IMG/VR virus record: IMGVR_UViG_3300030101_004648
Span: 1 to 28,349 of that record
DNA: 28,349 nt
Strand: one strand, 5' to 3'
Source: a virus
The position numbers and the translations under genes are program-made. Below, in pieces: positions 16,836 through 28,349 of this stretch; the stretch's first letter is position 1, and each line of letters begins with the position of its first letter. The notes under the pieces are model-generated. The model searched no databases, was not told the origin of the DNA, and saw only the letters and a program-made list of their open reading frames with translations.

Positions 16836-16868
16836 CCGTGCTAAAAAAACAGAGGCTTTTTAGCACGG
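16836..16868 (-). terminator. Rho-independent terminator for the reverse strand
   Basis: A 12-bp stem (CCGTGCTAAAAA with TTTTTAGCACGG). On the minus strand the stem is followed by TTTTATTTT, so it stops transcripts that come from the 32-residue peptide gene. On the plus strand no T tract follows. Confidence 0.75.
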
Positions 16869-16880
16869 GTGAAGAAAAGT

Positions 16881-16917
16881 ATTATGGGCTGGTGGGGACT
16901 AGCCCATAATTTTTTTA
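16881..16917 (+). terminator. Rho-independent terminator of the tail-lysis operon
   Basis: A perfect 10-bp stem ATTATGGGCT / AGCCCATAAT with a 10-base loop, followed by T7. It faces the reverse-strand terminator at 16836-16868. Its right arm lies inside the last codons of the reverse-strand peptide gene. Confidence 0.9.
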
Positions 16918-16997: not shown

Positions 16998-17012
16998 AAT
17001 AAATCTCCTAAA

Positions 17013-17043
17013 ATATTAATGTCACACGTTTACAGTGTGTAAA
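17013..17043 (-). promoter_or_regulatory. Reverse promoter of the membrane peptide
   Basis: On the minus strand: TTTACA (17043-17038), a 19-base spacer, then TAATAT (17018-17013). The -35 hexamer is the right half of the shared palindrome at 17028-17044. The spacer is slightly long, so the promoter may need or resist a regulator. Confidence 0.5.
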
Positions 17044-17044
17044 C
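17028..17044. promoter_or_regulatory. Palindromic operator between divergent promoters
   Basis: GTTTAC-AGTGT-GTAAAC, a perfect 6-bp inverted repeat with a 5-base centre. Each half contains TTTACA, which serves as the -35 hexamer of one of the two divergent promoters. A dimer of the regulator encoded at 17092 bound here would block both. The flank also has CACAC (17023-17027) and GTGTG (17035-17039), a partly overlapping symmetry. Confidence 0.6.
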
Positions 17045-17057
17045 ATTATGTTATACC
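17029..17057 (+). promoter_or_regulatory. Forward promoter of the regulator-replication operon
   Basis: TTTACA (17029-17034), a 17-base spacer, then TATACC (17052-17057). It overlaps the palindrome and precedes a leader of about 28 bases with an AAGGAGAG site before the regulator ATG. The -10 hexamer is moderate. Confidence 0.5.
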
Positions 17058-17091
17058 AAGTATTGCATTGTCAATAAAAAAAGGAGAGAAA

Positions 17092-17346
17092 ATGCAAGTA
17101 AAAGACAAATTCCCCGACTACGTGGCAGATATAATCTATCAAGAAAATATTACACAGGCACACTTTGCAAAAAAATGCGGAGTAACACCCGGCGCAGTCA
17201 CACAATGGATTAACGGCACACGACGTCCAAAAATAACGAGACTGAAACATATTATCACTGCTGTAATGCTCATCAAAAAAATTGCTCGCGCAGATGCCAC
17301 AAAAGAGGTTTGCCAAGCATATCTTTTTGAATATGGAATTTTATAA
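17092..17346 (+). CDS. Cro/C1-type (XRE) helix-turn-helix regulator
   Basis: An 84-residue DNA-binding protein; the start at 17092 has AAGGAGAG close by, unlike the longer frame from 17035, which would run through the promoter. Helix-turn-helix: about residues 21-40, NITQAHFAKKCGVTPGAVTQ, followed by WINGTRRPKITRLKHI, the usual recognition helix and third helix. The C-terminal helical part probably makes the dimer. Its gene leads the RusA-primase-helicase operon and faces the reverse-strand peptide across a palindrome, so it is the likely ligand of that operator. There is no C1-type peptidase domain, so it is Cro-like in size. TAATG couples it to rusA. Confidence 0.85.
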   Translation: MQVKDKFPDYVADIIYQENITQAHFAKKCGVTPGAVTQWINGTRRPKITRLKHIITAVMLIKKIARADATKEVCQAYLFEYGIL

Positions 17347-17824: not shown

Positions 17825-18166
17825 ATGGAACGACTATATATTATTGTTAATGATGAAGAAGTAATTAGCGCAAAGAAAGACAAAAAAGAGCTTTTACTGT
17901 TGATTGACAAAATGATTAACCTAGCACAAAAAAACATACCAATGCGACTTTTGCGTGCTTCTAAAATTACAGACAAACCAGAAAAAAACCGCCTAACATT
18001 TGCAGATAGTGAGCATGTAATAATTAATCGTACCAACGAAAATTATACATTATCAAATATAAGAGATTATTTGGTCGCAAATAACTACCCCACAAAGCGG
18101 GGCGGCAGCTGGACAATAACAACAGTGCGCAGGATACAAGCGCGATTAACCAAAAAAAAGCAATAG
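17825..18166 (+). CDS. Small DNA-binding protein with recombinase-like C-terminal motif
   Basis: A 113-residue protein without a good ribosome site, 2 bases after rusA. N-terminal part: LYIIVNDEEVIS, then a Lys/Leu-rich helix. C-terminal part: LSNIRDYLVANNYPTKRGGS, then WTITTVRRIQARL, which matches the end of the Recombinase domain of large serine recombinases (the pattern I-x-x-Y-L-N-x-x-G-x-P-T-x-R-G-G-x-W-x-x-x-T-V-R-R-I-L). The catalytic resolvase domain is absent, so it is not an integrase. It is more likely a small DNA binder that works in replication or control. A decayed recombinase is less likely because the gene is intact and placed in an operon. Confidence 0.65.
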   Translation: MERLYIIVNDEEVISAKKDKKELLLLIDKMINLAQKNIPMRLLRASKITDKPEKNRLTFADSEHVIINRTNENYTLSNIRDYLVANNYPTKRGGSWTITTVRRIQARLTKKKQ

Positions 18167-20664: not shown

Positions 20665-20850
20665 TGTGCAGTGTGTGCAGGGCATATTTTGAGACAGTGC
20701 ACGCTATTATCTTCGGATAGTAGCGTTTTTTTTATGCCTTGTGCAGATTTGCACTTAATTTCCCCTATCTCTTAATTAAAGATATAAATAGTAAAGATAA
20801 AGGTTTTTTGCTGCAATTGTGCACACAACTAAAAAAAATAAATGTTGCAC
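20665..20850. promoter_or_regulatory. Cluster of GTGCA/TGCAC motifs before the early genes
   Basis: GTGCA or TGCAC appears at least seven times: TGTGCAG at 20665 and 20674, GTGCAC at 20697 and 20819, the inverted pair GTGCA-GATT-TGCAC at 20741-20754, and TTGCAC at 20845. The stretch between (20755-20810) is AT-rich, with no gene. Such a cluster may be an operator array or a replication origin. Otherwise the 20661-20916 gap holds the terminator and the early promoter only. Confidence 0.4.
20701..20733 (+). terminator. Rho-independent terminator with UUCG loop
   Basis: An 11-bp stem (ACGCTATTATC with GATAGTAGCGT, one G-U pair) closed by the very stable cUUCGg tetraloop and followed by T8 (20726-20733). 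It ends the regulator-replication operon. Confidence 0.95.
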
Positions 20851-20872
20851 ACTTGTTGTACTGTGTTACACT
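20845..20872 (+). promoter_or_regulatory. Early promoter, copy 1
   Basis: TTGCAC (20845-20850), a 16-base spacer, then TACACT (20867-20872). It precedes a leader with the ATGAG-CTCAT hairpin (20879-20897) and ACAGGAGA. The -10 and the leader are repeated at 22572-22635. The -10 match is moderate, so the hexamers are a candidate only; the conserved repeat is the stronger evidence. Confidence 0.5.
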
Positions 20873-20921
20873 TAAAACATGAGAGACAAACGCTCATACT
20901 AAACAGGAGATTACAAATGAC
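20858..20921 (+). repeat. 64-bp promoter-leader cassette, copy 1
   Basis: 63 of 64 bases equal 22572-22635 (only 20866 T against 22580 A). It spans the -10 box, a hairpin with 5-bp stem, the ribosome site and the first codon and a half of the gene at 20917. Downstream coding sequence is not similar. A shared control cassette placed before two unrelated small genes. Confidence 0.95.
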
Positions 20922-21339
20922 TATAAAACAACTTATAAAAGCATGGACCACAAACCCAACAGACCACATTTTAGAATTAATCTTAGACGAGATAGACTGG
21001 CAAGCTGTTCTGAATGATATAACCAACGAAGCTGGCGGCGCTACCTTCTTAGAGTTCTATATTGATACTGAGGGCGTATATTGGTTAGAGGATGCTAATT
21101 TGCGCAGAGAAACGCGATATATCGGCCGTTTGCGTTGTGATAAAGGCGATTACGATTATCTTTGGAGTAACTACGCACACTACAACGTAGATACAGACCT
21201 ATACGACACAGAAGACGGCGAAAGTCTAACAAAACAAGAATTGCGCGCTTTATGTTTAGAGGATGGTTGTTTTGACCAGGAATACGAAAACATGCGCAAC
21301 AACCTTGCACACAGTGCAGTACACAACCTACTAGCATAA
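20917..21339 (+). CDS. Acidic early protein, 140 residues, unknown
   Basis: Starts at 20917, seven bases after ACAGGAGA; a longer frame from 20842 would use the promoter as coding sequence and is rejected. About 28 Asp/Glu against about 11 Lys/Arg, so it is strongly acidic; the middle has DKGDYDYLW and VDTDLYDTEDGES. Blocks include LELILDEIDWQAVLNDI (helix) and an Asp/Glu-rich C-terminal half. Being the first gene after a strong-looking promoter, small and acidic, it fits a host-takeover or anti-defence protein, and acidic DNA mimics such as T7 Ocr are known. That role is a hypothesis; I recognise no family. Confidence 0.75.
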   Translation: MTIKQLIKAWTTNPTDHILELILDEIDWQAVLNDITNEAGGATFLEFYIDTEGVYWLEDANLRRETRYIGRLRCDKGDYDYLWSNYAHYNVDTDLYDTEDGESLTKQELRALCLEDGCFDQEYENMRNNLAHSAVHNLLA

Positions 21340-22289: not shown

Positions 22290-22469
22290 ATGATAATCAA
22301 TAAACCAAAGCAAGGCAGGCACGCGCACGGCCAAAAGAGCAAGCGGATTGCGTTGCGCTGCCCTGAAAACATTTGCTGCCAGCTGCAGTCCATTGCAGAC
22401 AAAAACAACGTGTCATTGTCTGCCGTTGTTCTGGCAGCACTCAAAGAGTTTATAGCAAATACAAAATAA
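22290..22469 (+). CDS. Ribbon-helix-helix DNA-binding regulator, 59 residues
   Basis: ATG at 22290 with an ACAGGAGT site. Arc/MetJ-like layout: basic N-terminus (PKQGRHAHGQKSKR), then the strand RIALRCP that would enter the DNA groove, a first helix (ENICCQLQSIADKNN) and a second helix starting VSLSAVVLAALKEFI. Size and order match a dimeric RHH repressor. It closes the operon of small early proteins just before a terminator, the place where autoregulators such as the Aca proteins of anti-CRISPR operons are found, although known Aca proteins are mainly helix-turn-helix. It probably represses the early promoter(s). Confidence 0.8.
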   Translation: MIINKPKQGRHAHGQKSKRIALRCPENICCQLQSIADKNNVSLSAVVLAALKEFIANTK

Positions 22470-22524: not shown

Positions 22525-22557
22525 GGTAAAAAAAATGCTAATGATGCAAAATAACTG

Positions 22558-22586
22558 TGGCACACTTAAAAGTACTGTGATACACT
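22558..22586 (+). promoter_or_regulatory. Early promoter, copy 2
   Basis: TGGCAC (22558-22563), a 17-base spacer, then TACACT (22581-22586). It shares the -10 and leader with copy 1, but the -35 differs from TTGCAC, so strength probably differs. Confidence 0.5.
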
Positions 22587-22635
22587 TAAAACATGAGAGA
22601 CAAACGCTCATACTAAACAGGAGATTACAAATGAC
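22572..22635 (+). repeat. 64-bp promoter-leader cassette, copy 2
   Basis: 63 of 64 bases equal 20858-20921, 1,714 bases upstream. It also controls a single small gene (22631-22825) ending in its own terminator. The 14 bases CATACTAAACAGGA (22609-22622) occur in reverse complement at 22855-22868, just past that terminator. Confidence 0.95.
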
Positions 22636-22825
22636 AAATCAACAAAAACTAAACAATTATAAAAATATACTCAGTCAATTAATGAAGCTATCATATGCGC
22701 AACGTTTGAAATTAGAAGATCAAATTTACGATTTGAAAAGCGTTATTTATAAATTAGAATGGGACTCAATTAAAAAAGAAGATTATGTAAGACTTGATCT
22801 CTGGATAAAAAACTATAAACGATAA
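22631..22825 (+). CDS. 64-residue helical, basic small protein
   Basis: Start at 22631 after ACAGGAGA in the repeated leader. A Lys/Leu/Tyr-rich helical protein (NNYKNILSQLMKLSYAQRLK, DYVRLDLWIKNYKR), likely a small coiled coil. No family recognised. It has its own promoter copy and terminator, so it is a single-gene unit, possibly a moron that brought a copy of the control cassette or received it. Role unknown; regulated like the acidic early gene at 20917. Confidence 0.7.
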   Translation: MTNQQKLNNYKNILSQLMKLSYAQRLKLEDQIYDLKSVIYKLEWDSIKKEDYVRLDLWIKNYKR

Positions 22826-24176: not shown

Positions 24177-24839
24177 ATGCCACGTAAAACAAAATTTATT
24201 GAACCAATAAAAAATCAAATCATCCAAGCAATATCGCAGGGCGCCACGTATCAAGTAGCAGCAGAGTGCGCGAGCATTACAGAGGCAACCTTATATAATT
24301 GGATAAGAAAAGGAAACAAACAGGCAAGCGGTGCTTTTAGGTTGTTTGTTGACGCACTTAAACAAGCTGAAGCACAAAGCGCAATGGGTGCCTTGCAATG
24401 TATACAAACAAACATTGCCAATGGCAATTTAAAAGCTGCCTTTTTTCTTTTGGAACGCCGGCACAACTACAAACGCGAAGAACGCCACGTTAGAGCAAAT
24501 CAAATTACAGACCAACCAAAGCAAAAGCAACAAGAAATAAGCATAGCCAAAGAACTACAAGACCAGGCAGCAGATTTGCGCAAGGCAATTAAAAGCGCTG
24601 CAAAAAGTGAAAGCTGGCAGGCGTACGCGGCACTAAATAGGCAGCTTTTGCAAACCATCAGCCAAATACAGCATGTCCAAGCTGAAACGGGGCAGATTGA
24701 CAAAATGGATGCCTACTCAGACGAGCAATTATTAAACGAGATAACCAACGTTATTTTTGCATTGCCACCATTGGCCCGGCAAAGAATACAGGAAGAATTG
24801 GGCTTGTTGACAAACAACGTTATACCAATATCGAAATAA
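24177..24839 (+). CDS. terS: Terminase small subunit (TerS-like)
   Basis: A 220-residue protein. Helix-turn-helix at about residues 17-45: QAISQGATYQVAAECASI, then TEATLYNWIRKG, the DNA-recognition part of phage small terminase subunits. A middle helical region (HNYKREERHVRAN and Gln/Lys-rich parts) would form the ring, and the C-terminal tail has LPPLARQRIQEELGLL, possibly the large-subunit contact. It lies two genes before an unmistakable large subunit. TerS binds the packaging site and regulates the motor. The ribosome site (ACAGGAGA) lies inside the end of the gene before. Confidence 0.8.
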   Translation: MPRKTKFIEPIKNQIIQAISQGATYQVAAECASITEATLYNWIRKGNKQASGAFRLFVDALKQAEAQSAMGALQCIQTNIANGNLKAAFFLLERRHNYKREERHVRANQITDQPKQKQQEISIAKELQDQAADLRKAIKSAAKSESWQAYAALNRQLLQTISQIQHVQAETGQIDKMDAYSDEQLLNEITNVIFALPPLARQRIQEELGLLTNNVIPISK

Positions 24840-25219
24840 TGGGGAATATCATGGAATTGATTATTGCTGGCATTGTGGGATTGCTAATTGGCGTTGGTGG
24901 TACAAAGGCAGTAGATGCCATTAACAAAAAAAATGCCCCACCAATAATTATTGAAGACAAACGCGGAGAAAAAGAGCAGGAGGTTGTCAAACAACTTACA
25001 AATCTTGACGTAACGTTGCAGCTGTGCGAGAACGACAAAGAAAGCGGCCTTTGTCGAGAGCTTGTATGTTATCAATTTGGCAAAGGCGTTGGCACACAAA
25101 CAAGCCAAAAGCAATGCGAGGCAATTACCAACATTAACAACAGTATTATTTTATTTGATTACTGCAAAAAACAGCCTGACTTTGACAAGTGCATAGACAT
25201 TTTTTGGCGTCGTAAATGA
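24839..25219 (+). CDS. Membrane-anchored Cys-rich protein inside the terminase operon
   Basis: 126 residues from the TAATG overlap at 24839; an ATG at 24851 with GGGGA in front is a possible alternative start, four residues later. A hydrophobic helix at about 6-22 (ELIIAGIVGLLIGVGG) is followed by a Lys/Glu-rich coiled part and then a compact domain with six Cys (63, 72, 77, 93, 109, 118) that could form three disulfides in the periplasm. This anchor-plus-Cys form resembles exclusion factors or inner-membrane spanins more than any packaging protein. It lies between the two terminase subunits and overlaps TerL by 4 bases. Function unknown. Confidence 0.7.
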   Translation: MGNIMELIIAGIVGLLIGVGGTKAVDAINKKNAPPIIIEDKRGEKEQEVVKQLTNLDVTLQLCENDKESGLCRELVCYQFGKGVGTQTSQKQCEAITNINNSIILFDYCKKQPDFDKCIDIFWRRK

Positions 25220-26649
25220 CAAGGCATTTGCTAACATTTGCCAAAAAAATTAAGCACTTGCAAGCCCGTGCAGATCGAGACCCTTTGCATTGGTGGCGTG
25301 GCACAATACCGCAAAACCAATTCCTGCGAGACCCGGCGCCCATCAAATTGCTTTTGGGTGGCAACCAGGTTGGGAAAACTTCAGCCAGTTGCGCACTTTT
25401 GGTCTATCATTGTTTAGGATTACACCCACACTATGCAGTAGACCCGCCACCCATAGAGGCATGGATTGTCACGCATAGCATTGAACAAAGCAGAACCATC
25501 CAGCAAAAGCTTTGGGACATGCTACCCAAAGACCAATTGGCGGACAGTGTAGAATTTGTTAGAGGGCGCGGCTTTCGTGGTGTTACACCTATTGTAACCT
25601 TTGCAAATGGCAGTATAATACGCATAAAAACCGCAAATCAGGGATTGGGCCTGGCGTCTGCCAGTTGTAGCTTGGTTGTTATTGATGAGCCCGTGCCCGC
25701 AGAAGTGTTCAACGAATGTCTTGCACGTACCTTGCGAGGAGGTGCCGGCGGCAGATCGGGCACGCTTGCAATTAGCATGACACCTGTAGGCAACGTAGAT
25801 GTGCATTATATCAAAGACATGGTAGACAAAAAGCAAATATCTTGCACGCGTGCACCTTTGACAGTGCAAGCGACTACGCCGGAGGGCTTGGCGCCTTTAC
25901 TTAGTCAGGCACAAATAGACAATATTACAGCAGGATATCTGCCAATAGATAGAGAGGCCCGCATAAGTGGCAGCTTTGACGTAACACCACACGGCGTAAT
26001 ATTTGATAAATTCGATCCTGCTACAATGATAATTAACCGACCATGTCCACCATCAAAAGTCTACAAATATTCTGTTGGCATTGACCACGGCACGGCACCG
26101 GGTAGCCAATGCGCAATATTAACGGCAATAAATATGCAAGATCCACAAAACCCAGAAGTATATATTCTTGGTGAGTATGTTAGTGGAGGCAGTGCCACGC
26201 CTGAGGACCACGCGCGCGGCATTTTAGCAATGCTAAAACGTCACCATATCAAGCCGGAGTTATGCCGCTGGACAGGTGACGGTGACCATTATGGCGGCAG
26301 AGGCAAAACAGGTATGCACATGTCAAATCTTGTTTTGATGCGCGCGTTCGAGCGTGTTATGGGATTACATCATAGGTGTTTAACATTTACAATACGCAAA
26401 GCAAAAAAGGCCCGGCACAGCGTTTATTTCAGCGCGTCAATGATATACGCTATTATGTCGAGAAAAAAATTCTTTGTGCATGCAGATTGCCAAAGATTAA
26501 TTCAGTCAATCCAAAATTGGACCATGAAAAGAGACAGTAGCCAAAGGTCGAAAGATAGGTGGGGGCATTGTATCGATGCAATGCGTTACGCGGTATTGCA
26601 AACCATCGATTATAAATATATAATACCTCAAACGATAAGGATTGCATAA
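25216..26649 (+). CDS. terL: Terminase large subunit (TerL), packaging ATPase-nuclease
   Basis: A 477-residue motor protein starting at the ATGA overlap. Walker A is GGNQVGKT (48-55), Walker B is LVVIDEP (153-159) with catalytic Glu158, and the coupling motif SMTPVG lies near 187. The RNase H-like nuclease domain has Asp290 in GIDHGT, Asp355/357 in TGDGDHYGG and Asp454 in GHCIDAMRYA. It pumps DNA through the portal and cuts it. It lies before the portal as usual. Terminase type (cos or pac) cannot be told from the sequence by eye; a phylogeny with TerL of known type would show it. Confidence 0.95.
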   Translation: MTRHLLTFAKKIKHLQARADRDPLHWWRGTIPQNQFLRDPAPIKLLLGGNQVGKTSASCALLVYHCLGLHPHYAVDPPPIEAWIVTHSIEQSRTIQQKLWDMLPKDQLADSVEFVRGRGFRGVTPIVTFANGSIIRIKTANQGLGLASASCSLVVIDEPVPAEVFNECLARTLRGGAGGRSGTLAISMTPVGNVDVHYIKDMVDKKQISCTRAPLTVQATTPEGLAPLLSQAQIDNITAGYLPIDREARISGSFDVTPHGVIFDKFDPATMIINRPCPPSKVYKYSVGIDHGTAPGSQCAILTAINMQDPQNPEVYILGEYVSGGSATPEDHARGILAMLKRHHIKPELCRWTGDGDHYGGRGKTGMHMSNLVLMRAFERVMGLHHRCLTFTIRKAKKARHSVYFSASMIYAIMSRKKFFVHADCQRLIQSIQNWTMKRDSSQRSKDRWGHCIDAMRYAVLQTIDYKYIIPQTIRIA

Positions 26650-28094
26650 TGGACACATACGAAATACCAGCAAAGCCAATGGCGCCAAATGGATACGAAC
26701 AAGAAAGATGGGACCATACAGCGATGCGCAGGAGGCAAATTCAAGGGCGCTACGAGGACGACTTAGAACACGAATTAGCAAGGCACCTGCCGAGCGACAG
26801 GCGCGAAGCGTGGGGGCCTCCTGACTTATCAAGTAACGTCTTAGAGAATGTTACTCGCCAATTATCCATGTTGTACCATGCCACGCCAACAGTAACACAC
26901 CCGGAATATGATGTTAGTCCTTTGTTTGGTCGAACTGGCATTGTAACAAAAGCGGGCCTGTGGCCAATGATGCAACGCGTGCAACAAATGGCACTTGGAT
27001 TGCGCGAATGTATTGTCAGGATAGATGCCCCAGCAAATGCAGGCTTGCAATATCGTTTGGTCACTCCTGACTTTGTATATGCCGAGGCAGACGCAGACGC
27101 GCCGGACGTGCCCGTGTATTATCAAGAACTAAGACTACGCTTTAACGCCAACAAAGGAAAAGGGGAATGGGTGGCGGATTGCCTTGATATTAGGGACCCA
27201 GAAAACCCAAGCTTTGCATTGCACAAAATAGATAGTGACGGCAGCAAAGGCGCAGACGTTACAGAGCAATATCTCGGACGCCCTGCCTTTGTTGGCGATG
27301 AATACCCGTACCGAGACAACGAAAACAAACCTTTTTTGCCGCTAGAAATATACAGGGCAGAAAAAACCGGTCAATTATTTAATCCATACGACCAAAGTGC
27401 CCTCGCGTTCGGCTCTTTATCGTCGGGCGTGCTTTTTAGTTTTTTTACGCACTGTTTACGGGACTCGTCATGGCCCCAAAGGTATACAGTAGGTTTGCAG
27501 GTTCAGGGGCTCACACAAGAAAGTCAAAACCTAGCAAGCCGAAGAGCGACAGTAACCACAGACCCCAGCACAATTTTAATGTTTGCAAATGACCCAGACC
27601 TAAGCGGGCAGGCAATGATTGGCCAATTCCAAGCAGGGTGCGACCCGTTGCACTTGTTAGAGGCTATATCAAAATATGAAGTACGTGTCAGCACTGCGGC
27701 CGGTATAAGTGGCGACATTTTGCGCCAAAGCGGCGACCCTAGATCTGGGTATGCGATTTCTGTTTCTAGGTCCGGGCAACGTGAAATGAGTAAAAGGTAT
27801 GCAATTATTTTTCGTGGCGTGGATGAGAGCCTTATTGGCAAATCTGCATTAATGGCCAATAAGTTTTTGGGATTACAACCTCAGGCACCACAGGACGGCT
27901 ACAGGGTAGTATATGCGCAAATCCCCCTATCACCTGAAGAAATGAAAGCACAAAGAGAGGACGTAATACAAAAACTCAGTGCCGGCCTTATATCGCCAGT
28001 GGATGCCATACAAATGCTTAATCCAGATTTGGACGTTGACGGCGCCAAGGCGGAGCTGATAAGAATACGAAGAGAAAGGGCAGAATTCATTTAA
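26649..28094 (+). CDS. Portal protein
   Basis: A 481-residue protein, TAATG-coupled to TerL. The first 90 residues are charged (helical), then the body with AGLWPMMQRVQQMALGLREC, the stem or wing region around PYRDNENKPFLPLEIYRAEK, and a long helix with STAAGISGDILRQSGDPRSG, a block similar to other portals (the xxSGxAL-type tunnel-loop region). The C-terminal part ends in helices (MKAQREDVIQKLSAGL, DGAKAELIRIRRERAE) that would form the crown. Twelve copies form the ring through which DNA passes. The place between TerL and scaffold is typical. Confidence 0.9.
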   Translation: MDTYEIPAKPMAPNGYEQERWDHTAMRRRQIQGRYEDDLEHELARHLPSDRREAWGPPDLSSNVLENVTRQLSMLYHATPTVTHPEYDVSPLFGRTGIVTKAGLWPMMQRVQQMALGLRECIVRIDAPANAGLQYRLVTPDFVYAEADADAPDVPVYYQELRLRFNANKGKGEWVADCLDIRDPENPSFALHKIDSDGSKGADVTEQYLGRPAFVGDEYPYRDNENKPFLPLEIYRAEKTGQLFNPYDQSALAFGSLSSGVLFSFFTHCLRDSSWPQRYTVGLQVQGLTQESQNLASRRATVTTDPSTILMFANDPDLSGQAMIGQFQAGCDPLHLLEAISKYEVRVSTAAGISGDILRQSGDPRSGYAISVSRSGQREMSKRYAIIFRGVDESLIGKSALMANKFLGLQPQAPQDGYRVVYAQIPLSPEEMKAQREDVIQKLSAGLISPVDAIQMLNPDLDVDGAKAELIRIRRERAEFI

Positions 28095-28109: not shown

Positions 28110-28349
28110 ATGGATGAAACAAACGAGAGTAAACCAACAGAACAAAGCTACAGTAAATCAGACGTTGAAAATATAATCAAGGACAGGATTGCAAAGGTAG
28201 CAAAGAGAGCAAACGAGGCAGAGGCAACTATCAAAGACCTGCGCGCGCAAATGGATAAGCAAGCGCAAAGCGTTGGCACTGTTGACATGCTTACACAGCA
28301 GTTGGCAGAGATGCAACAAAAACTACAAAGCACCGAGCAAAGATATGCA
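28110..28349 (+). CDS. Capsid scaffolding protein, N-terminal part (continues at base 1)
   Basis: The true start of the scaffold gene is this ATG, 15 bases after the portal stop, with an ACAGGAGA ribosome site at 28096-28103. The frame runs off the window end. Joined at the 99-bp overlap it gives a protein of about 211 residues (47 before the joint, 164 after). The N-terminal half is charged and heptad-like, rich in Lys, Glu and Gln, and predicted to be a coiled coil. The middle has a segment typical of phage scaffolds, and a Gln/Pro-rich linker precedes a basic C-terminal helix, the usual capsid-binding end. Portal before it and the head genes after it support the role. Scaffolds are not conserved enough to call by sequence alone, so the call rests on layout and coiled-coil character. 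Confidence 0.7.
   Translation, partial: MDETNESKPTEQSYSKSDVENIIKDRIAKVAKRANEAEATIKDLRAQMDKQAQSVGTVDMLTQQLAEMQQKLQSTEQRYA
28251..28349. repeat. Right copy of 99-bp terminal direct repeat
   Basis: Exact copy of bases 1-99. It lies inside the scaffold gene, and the reading frame from 28110 continues across the joint into the frame starting at base 1. Inference: circular closure of the assembly rather than a duplicated gene. Confidence 0.95.

Follow-up and report, generated by a model that had tools for sequence, protein, structure and literature searches.

In phage P22, the overlapping divergent promoters of the ant/mnt region are controlled by two small repressors, Arc and Mnt, which are ribbon-helix-helix rather than helix-turn-helix (HTH) proteins. 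Other published arrangements of this kind come from a plasmid, a bacterial chromosome and a temperate phage. On the Bacillus plasmid pLS20, the divergent promoters Pc and Pr overlap, one of them has an extended -10 box, and the Xre-family regulator Rco has binding sites that overlap and surround them; the two promoters are reported to have coinciding -10 and -35 boxes (PMC4207663). Rco is described as tetrameric, as activating its own promoter as well, and as looping the DNA to a second operator (PMC4207663). The bidirectional promoters reported for Escherichia coli share a -10 box to which RNA polymerase binds in either of two orientations, each excluding the other, with starts most often 18 bp apart and distances of 10 and 23 bp also common (PMC12825309). 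Phage PY54, which is temperate, is described as having a small Cro protein, a single palindromic operator and a CI repressor gene opposite cro (PMC4488713).

We analysed the virus record IMGVR_UViG_3300030101_004648 over its whole length of 28,349 nt (the window), in which a 94 bp gap separates a leftward gene for a 32-aa peptide from a rightward gene for an 84-aa HTH protein. The arrangement found in this gap looks like a compact version of a known control element rather than a new kind of switch, and it differs from pLS20, the E. coli bidirectional promoters and PY54 in detail. Positions 1–99 of the window are identical to positions 28251–28349, and because of this 99-base terminal repeat the record is probably a complete, circularly closed genome with a unit of 28250 bases. 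Pfam and PHROGs indicated terminase, tape-measure, head-decoration or tail-fibre-like and endolysin-type genes. The PHROGs scan covered 40 translations; the small-terminase candidate (24177–24836) was compared with Pfam only, and the part of a junction-spanning protein at 1–495 was left out. A phage DNA search with the sequence returned no match, and protein searches of phages and plasmids returned remote matches only, all below 60% identity. In searches of phage records, Pfam and PHROG, the terminase large subunit (25216–26649) had only remote matches, in 9 of 50,697 phage records, the best with 27% identity over 55%, and no Pfam or PHROG family was matched by the protein encoded at the portal position (26649–28094). 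On the strength of these two results, the searches indicate that the phage lineage is poorly sampled.

Scans of viral_contigs and genome_contigs revealed a single close relative, a 5913-base contig from the same lineage, whose VapE-like protein is 80% identical to that of the window. The gene order around the intergenic gap is the same in this relative, the HTH proteins are 65% identical, and the membrane peptides are of equal length and 69% identical (22 of 32 residues). Over 502 aligned columns, a fraction of 0.715 is kept between the two sequences. The intergenic comparison left out L002, in which the HTH match was 52% over 33 residues in a different context, as well as L010 (33%) and L011 (37% over 38 residues).

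The two genes that the first-pass annotation had placed on either side of the gap are both present. The leftward gene (minus strand, 16997–16899) has 32 codons and encodes a small hydrophobic, membrane-type peptide, MIILAAITKTIIIALCCMATALLVVDHKKIMG. Its ribosome site, AGGAG at 17009–17005, lies 7 bases before the ATG and is conserved in the relative. The peptide matched no PHROG family and had no match in phage records. Because the relative keeps the ORF with a dN/dS of ~0.18 (6, 5 and 15 differences at the first, second and third codon positions), we regard it as a real gene. The rightward gene (plus strand, 17092–17346) has 84 codons, encodes a Cro/C1-type regulator and is the first of a replication operon, with RusA-like, primase-like and VapE-like genes downstream (Pfam, PHROGs). 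Its product belongs to Pfam family HTH_3, with a profile score of 33.5 bits where the threshold is 23. Differences from the relative number 20, 14 and 47 by codon position, with a dN/dS of ~0.08 and synonymous sites near saturation. By these codon comparisons, both proteins are under selection.

The AlphaFold2 model of the 84-aa protein has five helices, the best of five models reaching a mean pLDDT of 85.6 and the others 61–71. A fold search with this model gave restriction-modification controller proteins (C-proteins) and P22 c2 as the best matches, all with E > 0.001; the controller proteins and c2 bind DNA as dimers. The hairpin scan placed two terminator-like hairpins between the peptide/HTH pair and the lysis genes. 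One (minus strand, 16836–16868) would end the leftward transcript and has a counterpart of the same shape and place, with a different stem sequence, in the relative; the other (plus strand, 16881–16910) would end rightward transcripts coming from the lysis genes.

A mechanical promoter scan of the minus strand identified a putative leftward promoter, TTGACA-18-CATAAT (17074–17045), which matches the consensus at 11 of 12 positions, with its -35 box at 17069–17074 and its -10 box at 17045–17050. The pair ranked 5th in the window by a simple sigma-70 weight table, which serves for ranking only and whose consensus may differ from that of the host. In the relative, the -35 box is identical and the -10 box reads CACAAT, and by the same table no pair in the relative's gap scores better than TTGACA-17-CACAAT. 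A pair matching at 11 of 12 positions or better arose in 48 of 3000 shuffled gaps. Transcription from the predicted start at ~17038 would produce a leader of ~40 bases that includes the ribosome site of the peptide gene.

The predicted rightward promoter takes as its -35 box the TTTACA in the left arm of a palindrome that we call O1 (plus strand, 17029–17034), followed at a 17 bp spacing by the extended -10 element TGT-TATACC (17049–17057, hexamer 17052–17057), with a predicted start at ~17064. The relative keeps TTTACA, the 17 bp spacing and the TGn, and reads TGA-TACTGT. By score the rightward promoter is weak (rank ~192 in the window), and its -10 box lacks the final T. From left to right, the order of the predicted boxes is rightward -35, leftward -10, rightward -10 and leftward -35. 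The two -10 boxes are only 1 bp apart and the two predicted starts are 26 bp apart. Given the usual footprint of RNA polymerase, -10 boxes this close should make polymerase binding at the two promoters mutually exclusive, and the interlocked boxes support the earlier proposal that polymerase could not occupy both promoters at once.

The palindrome O1 (17028–17044; GTTTACAGTGTGTAAAC), the proposed operator, overlies both predicted promoters, at the start of the leftward one and the -35 box of the rightward one. It had been described with shorter arms, and is better parsed as 7 bp arms with a 3 bp spacer (GTTTACA-GTG-TGTAAAC); as originally noted, each arm contains TTTACA (plus strand, 17029–17034; minus strand, 17043–17038). 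The sequence is the sole match in the window with fewer than two mismatches. Symmetry alone says little for O1, since dinucleotide shuffling of the 94 bp gap gave arms of at least 7 with a spacer of 0–10 in 433 of 5000 cases. In the relative, 14 of the 17 columns of O1 are kept, and the surrounding block at 17019–17048 is identical in 26 of 30 columns; in the -10 region at 17049–17064 the figure is 9 of 16. The relative's counterpart of O1 is an imperfect palindrome, and there are no arms of at least 5 anywhere in its gap. Immediately ahead of a different gene's ribosome site, the relative carries GTTAACACAGTGTTAAC, which is identical to O1 at 14 of 17 positions. When the relative was shuffled, 11 of 400 versions contained a match of this quality; palindromes with arms of 9 and a spacer no longer than 3 arose in 29 of 200 shuffles.

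A weight matrix built from three sites detected no second O1-like site above shuffle level in the window. The best other candidate (27442–27460) scored 16.7, lies inside a gene and was rejected, as shuffles reach 17.85. Set against the imperfect palindrome of the relative, the shuffle rates and the lack of a second site in the window, the conserved block and the additional O1-like site in the relative make it likely that O1 is an operator. A weaker dyad, AACAT-T-ATGTT at 17039–17055, overlaps O1 at a distance of 11 bp (one helical turn) from its centre, and the relative has a related site, matching at 13 of 17 positions, at the same place.

The explanation that we favour, and consider reasonably probable, is that this is a Cro-like autoregulatory operator set on interlocked, mutually exclusive divergent promoters in the region that controls the early genes of a small phage. 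The two promoters, both of sigma-70 type, would diverge and interlock, with polymerase on one of them at a time, and O1 would be the operator of the 84-aa Cro/C1-type protein, which is the natural candidate to bind it. The centre of O1 (17036) falls near +3 relative to the predicted leftward start and near -28 relative to the predicted rightward one, positions from which a bound dimer would block both promoters. In this respect the first-pass annotation, which proposed a divergent promoter pair with one palindrome so placed that a bound dimer would block both, agrees with the sequence. The regulator would thus switch the peptide gene off and restrain the early replication operon to which its own gene belongs, and the outcome would be Cro-like negative feedback rather than a decision between lysis and lysogeny. 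Promoter activity and start sites are predictions in this scheme, and from the same elements we infer the identity of the binding protein, the repression of both genes and the competition between polymerases.

How the palindrome contributes to the promoters is the point on which the earlier model needs revision. In that model, each arm provides the -35 box of one of two back-to-back divergent promoters, and TTTACA, present in each arm, does match the consensus at 5 of 6 positions. The rightward half stands, as this copy of the hexamer is kept in the relative together with its 17 bp spacing and TGn. The leftward half does not: the pair formed by TTTACA (17043–17038) and TAATAT (17018–17013) has a 19 bp spacer, its predicted start at ~17006 falls inside the AGGAG ribosome site, and it ranks ~167 in the window against 5th for TTGACA-18-CATAAT, which is kept in the relative. 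The hexamer itself reads TTAACG in the relative, where the pair lies outside the 12 best. We rejected this leftward promoter and consider the back-to-back model very improbable. It is conceivable that the palindrome is a by-product of chance, the stretch being conserved as promoter and leader with no dimeric protein binding to it; the proportion of shuffled gaps that equal O1 and the degraded symmetry in the relative fit such a reading. However, the relative has a 17-mer with this pattern ahead of a different gene, and conservation is higher across 17019–17048 than in the -10 region, and we judge a chance origin to be unlikely.

If O1 is an operator, it could serve a protein other than the 84-aa HTH protein, either a host regulator or the Arc-like protein of the phage (22290–22469). 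The phage does have this second candidate regulator, and binding of the 84-aa protein to O1 is a prediction. Yet small HTH_3 regulators commonly have a binding site next to their own gene, and the 17 bp, odd-centred form of O1 suits a dimeric HTH protein, as in lambda; attribution to another protein is, in our estimation, decidedly unlikely. Mutually exclusive promoters with a conserved peptide gene opposite the regulator would also be expected of a genuine two-state switch, with the membrane peptide acting against the regulator. An action of the peptide on the regulator is, however, supposition, the peptide is without a match in phage records, and the scan of 40 translations detected neither a CI-type repressor nor a catalytic integrase, which leaves such a switch with very little probability. 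We attach just as little to its specific form, in which the peptide would tether the HTH regulator to the membrane or inactivate it in some other way; the interlocked promoters, with a single operator and two very small genes, would then make a minimal bistable element in a phage without a CI-type repressor or an integrase.

The locus had been put forward as a compact decision element, with the remark that no integrase was visible. The remark is correct, in that the PHROGs scan found no integrase with a catalytic domain among the 40 translations of this apparently complete genome. No CI-type partner repressor was found in it either, and because neither was found, a lysogeny decision is not supported. 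The lambda-type CI/Cro arrangement has a lysogeny repressor opposite cro, whereas the opposite gene here encodes a 32-aa hydrophobic peptide. As for an integrase or other means of stable lysogeny, there is one weak integrase-type match of 39 residues. It lies in a 113-aa protein (17825–18163) and corresponds to the region with which large serine recombinases bind DNA, with no match to the catalytic domain (Pfam Recombinase 21.5 bits, cut-off 21.1; phrog_95, E 0.00049). A lambda-like decision switch was rejected, as neither a CI-type partner nor a catalytic integrase was found in the translations scanned; extrachromosomal lysogeny is possible.

Compared with the known systems, the locus resembles pLS20 in its predicted overlapping divergent promoters, one with an extended -10 box, and in that the HTH regulator's own gene is one of the pair. 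Unlike the coinciding boxes reported for pLS20, those predicted here are shifted so that the -10 boxes adjoin, and one site is seen, the three-site matrix giving no second operator for looping. As described for the E. coli bidirectional promoters, polymerase in one orientation would exclude the other. Here, however, the predicted -10 boxes lie side by side rather than shared, with starts further apart than the distances reported as common, and the interlocked pair may work like a bidirectional promoter nonetheless. The small Cro-type protein, the single palindromic candidate operator and the divergent genes recall PY54, in which the reported opposite gene encodes CI rather than a 32-aa membrane peptide. 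With P22 ant/mnt the locus shares overlapping divergent promoters, and differs in having an HTH rather than a ribbon-helix-helix regulator. A literature search for this arrangement, including P22 ant/mnt, found no paper.

On its own, the arrangement would leave the present view of phage switches unchanged. Should the geometry prove correct, it would be a very compact natural case of two mutually exclusive promoters with one operator over both, for which a fragment of ~130 bp would suffice as an easy test. It would also offer a first starting point for functional work on this phage lineage, for which the collections searched held one close relative.

Other possible regulatory sites were observed away from the gap. 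The relative has a 19 bp palindrome, TGTTAACAC-A-GTGTTAACA (L003 2284–2302; L007 378–396, minus strand), flanked by a promoter-like pair on one side and by the ribosome site of a gene for 85 aa on the other. No counterpart of this gene was seen in the window, which has an ATGAG/CTCAT repeat at that place. The idea that this palindrome is an exact 17 bp insertion relative to the window leader at 20893 was dropped, as the gap appears in one alignment and not with MAFFT. The window contains two near-identical promoter and leader modules (20850–20925 and 22556–22640) with a common stretch ending in TACACTTAAAACATGAGAGACAAACGCTCATACTAAACAGGAGATTACAAATGAC. Directly after its -10 box, each module has the inverted repeat ATGAG-N9-CTCAT. 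These repeats are perhaps operators of a second phage regulator. A 59-aa Arc-like (ribbon-helix-helix) protein is encoded at 22290–22469 and is a possible second regulator.
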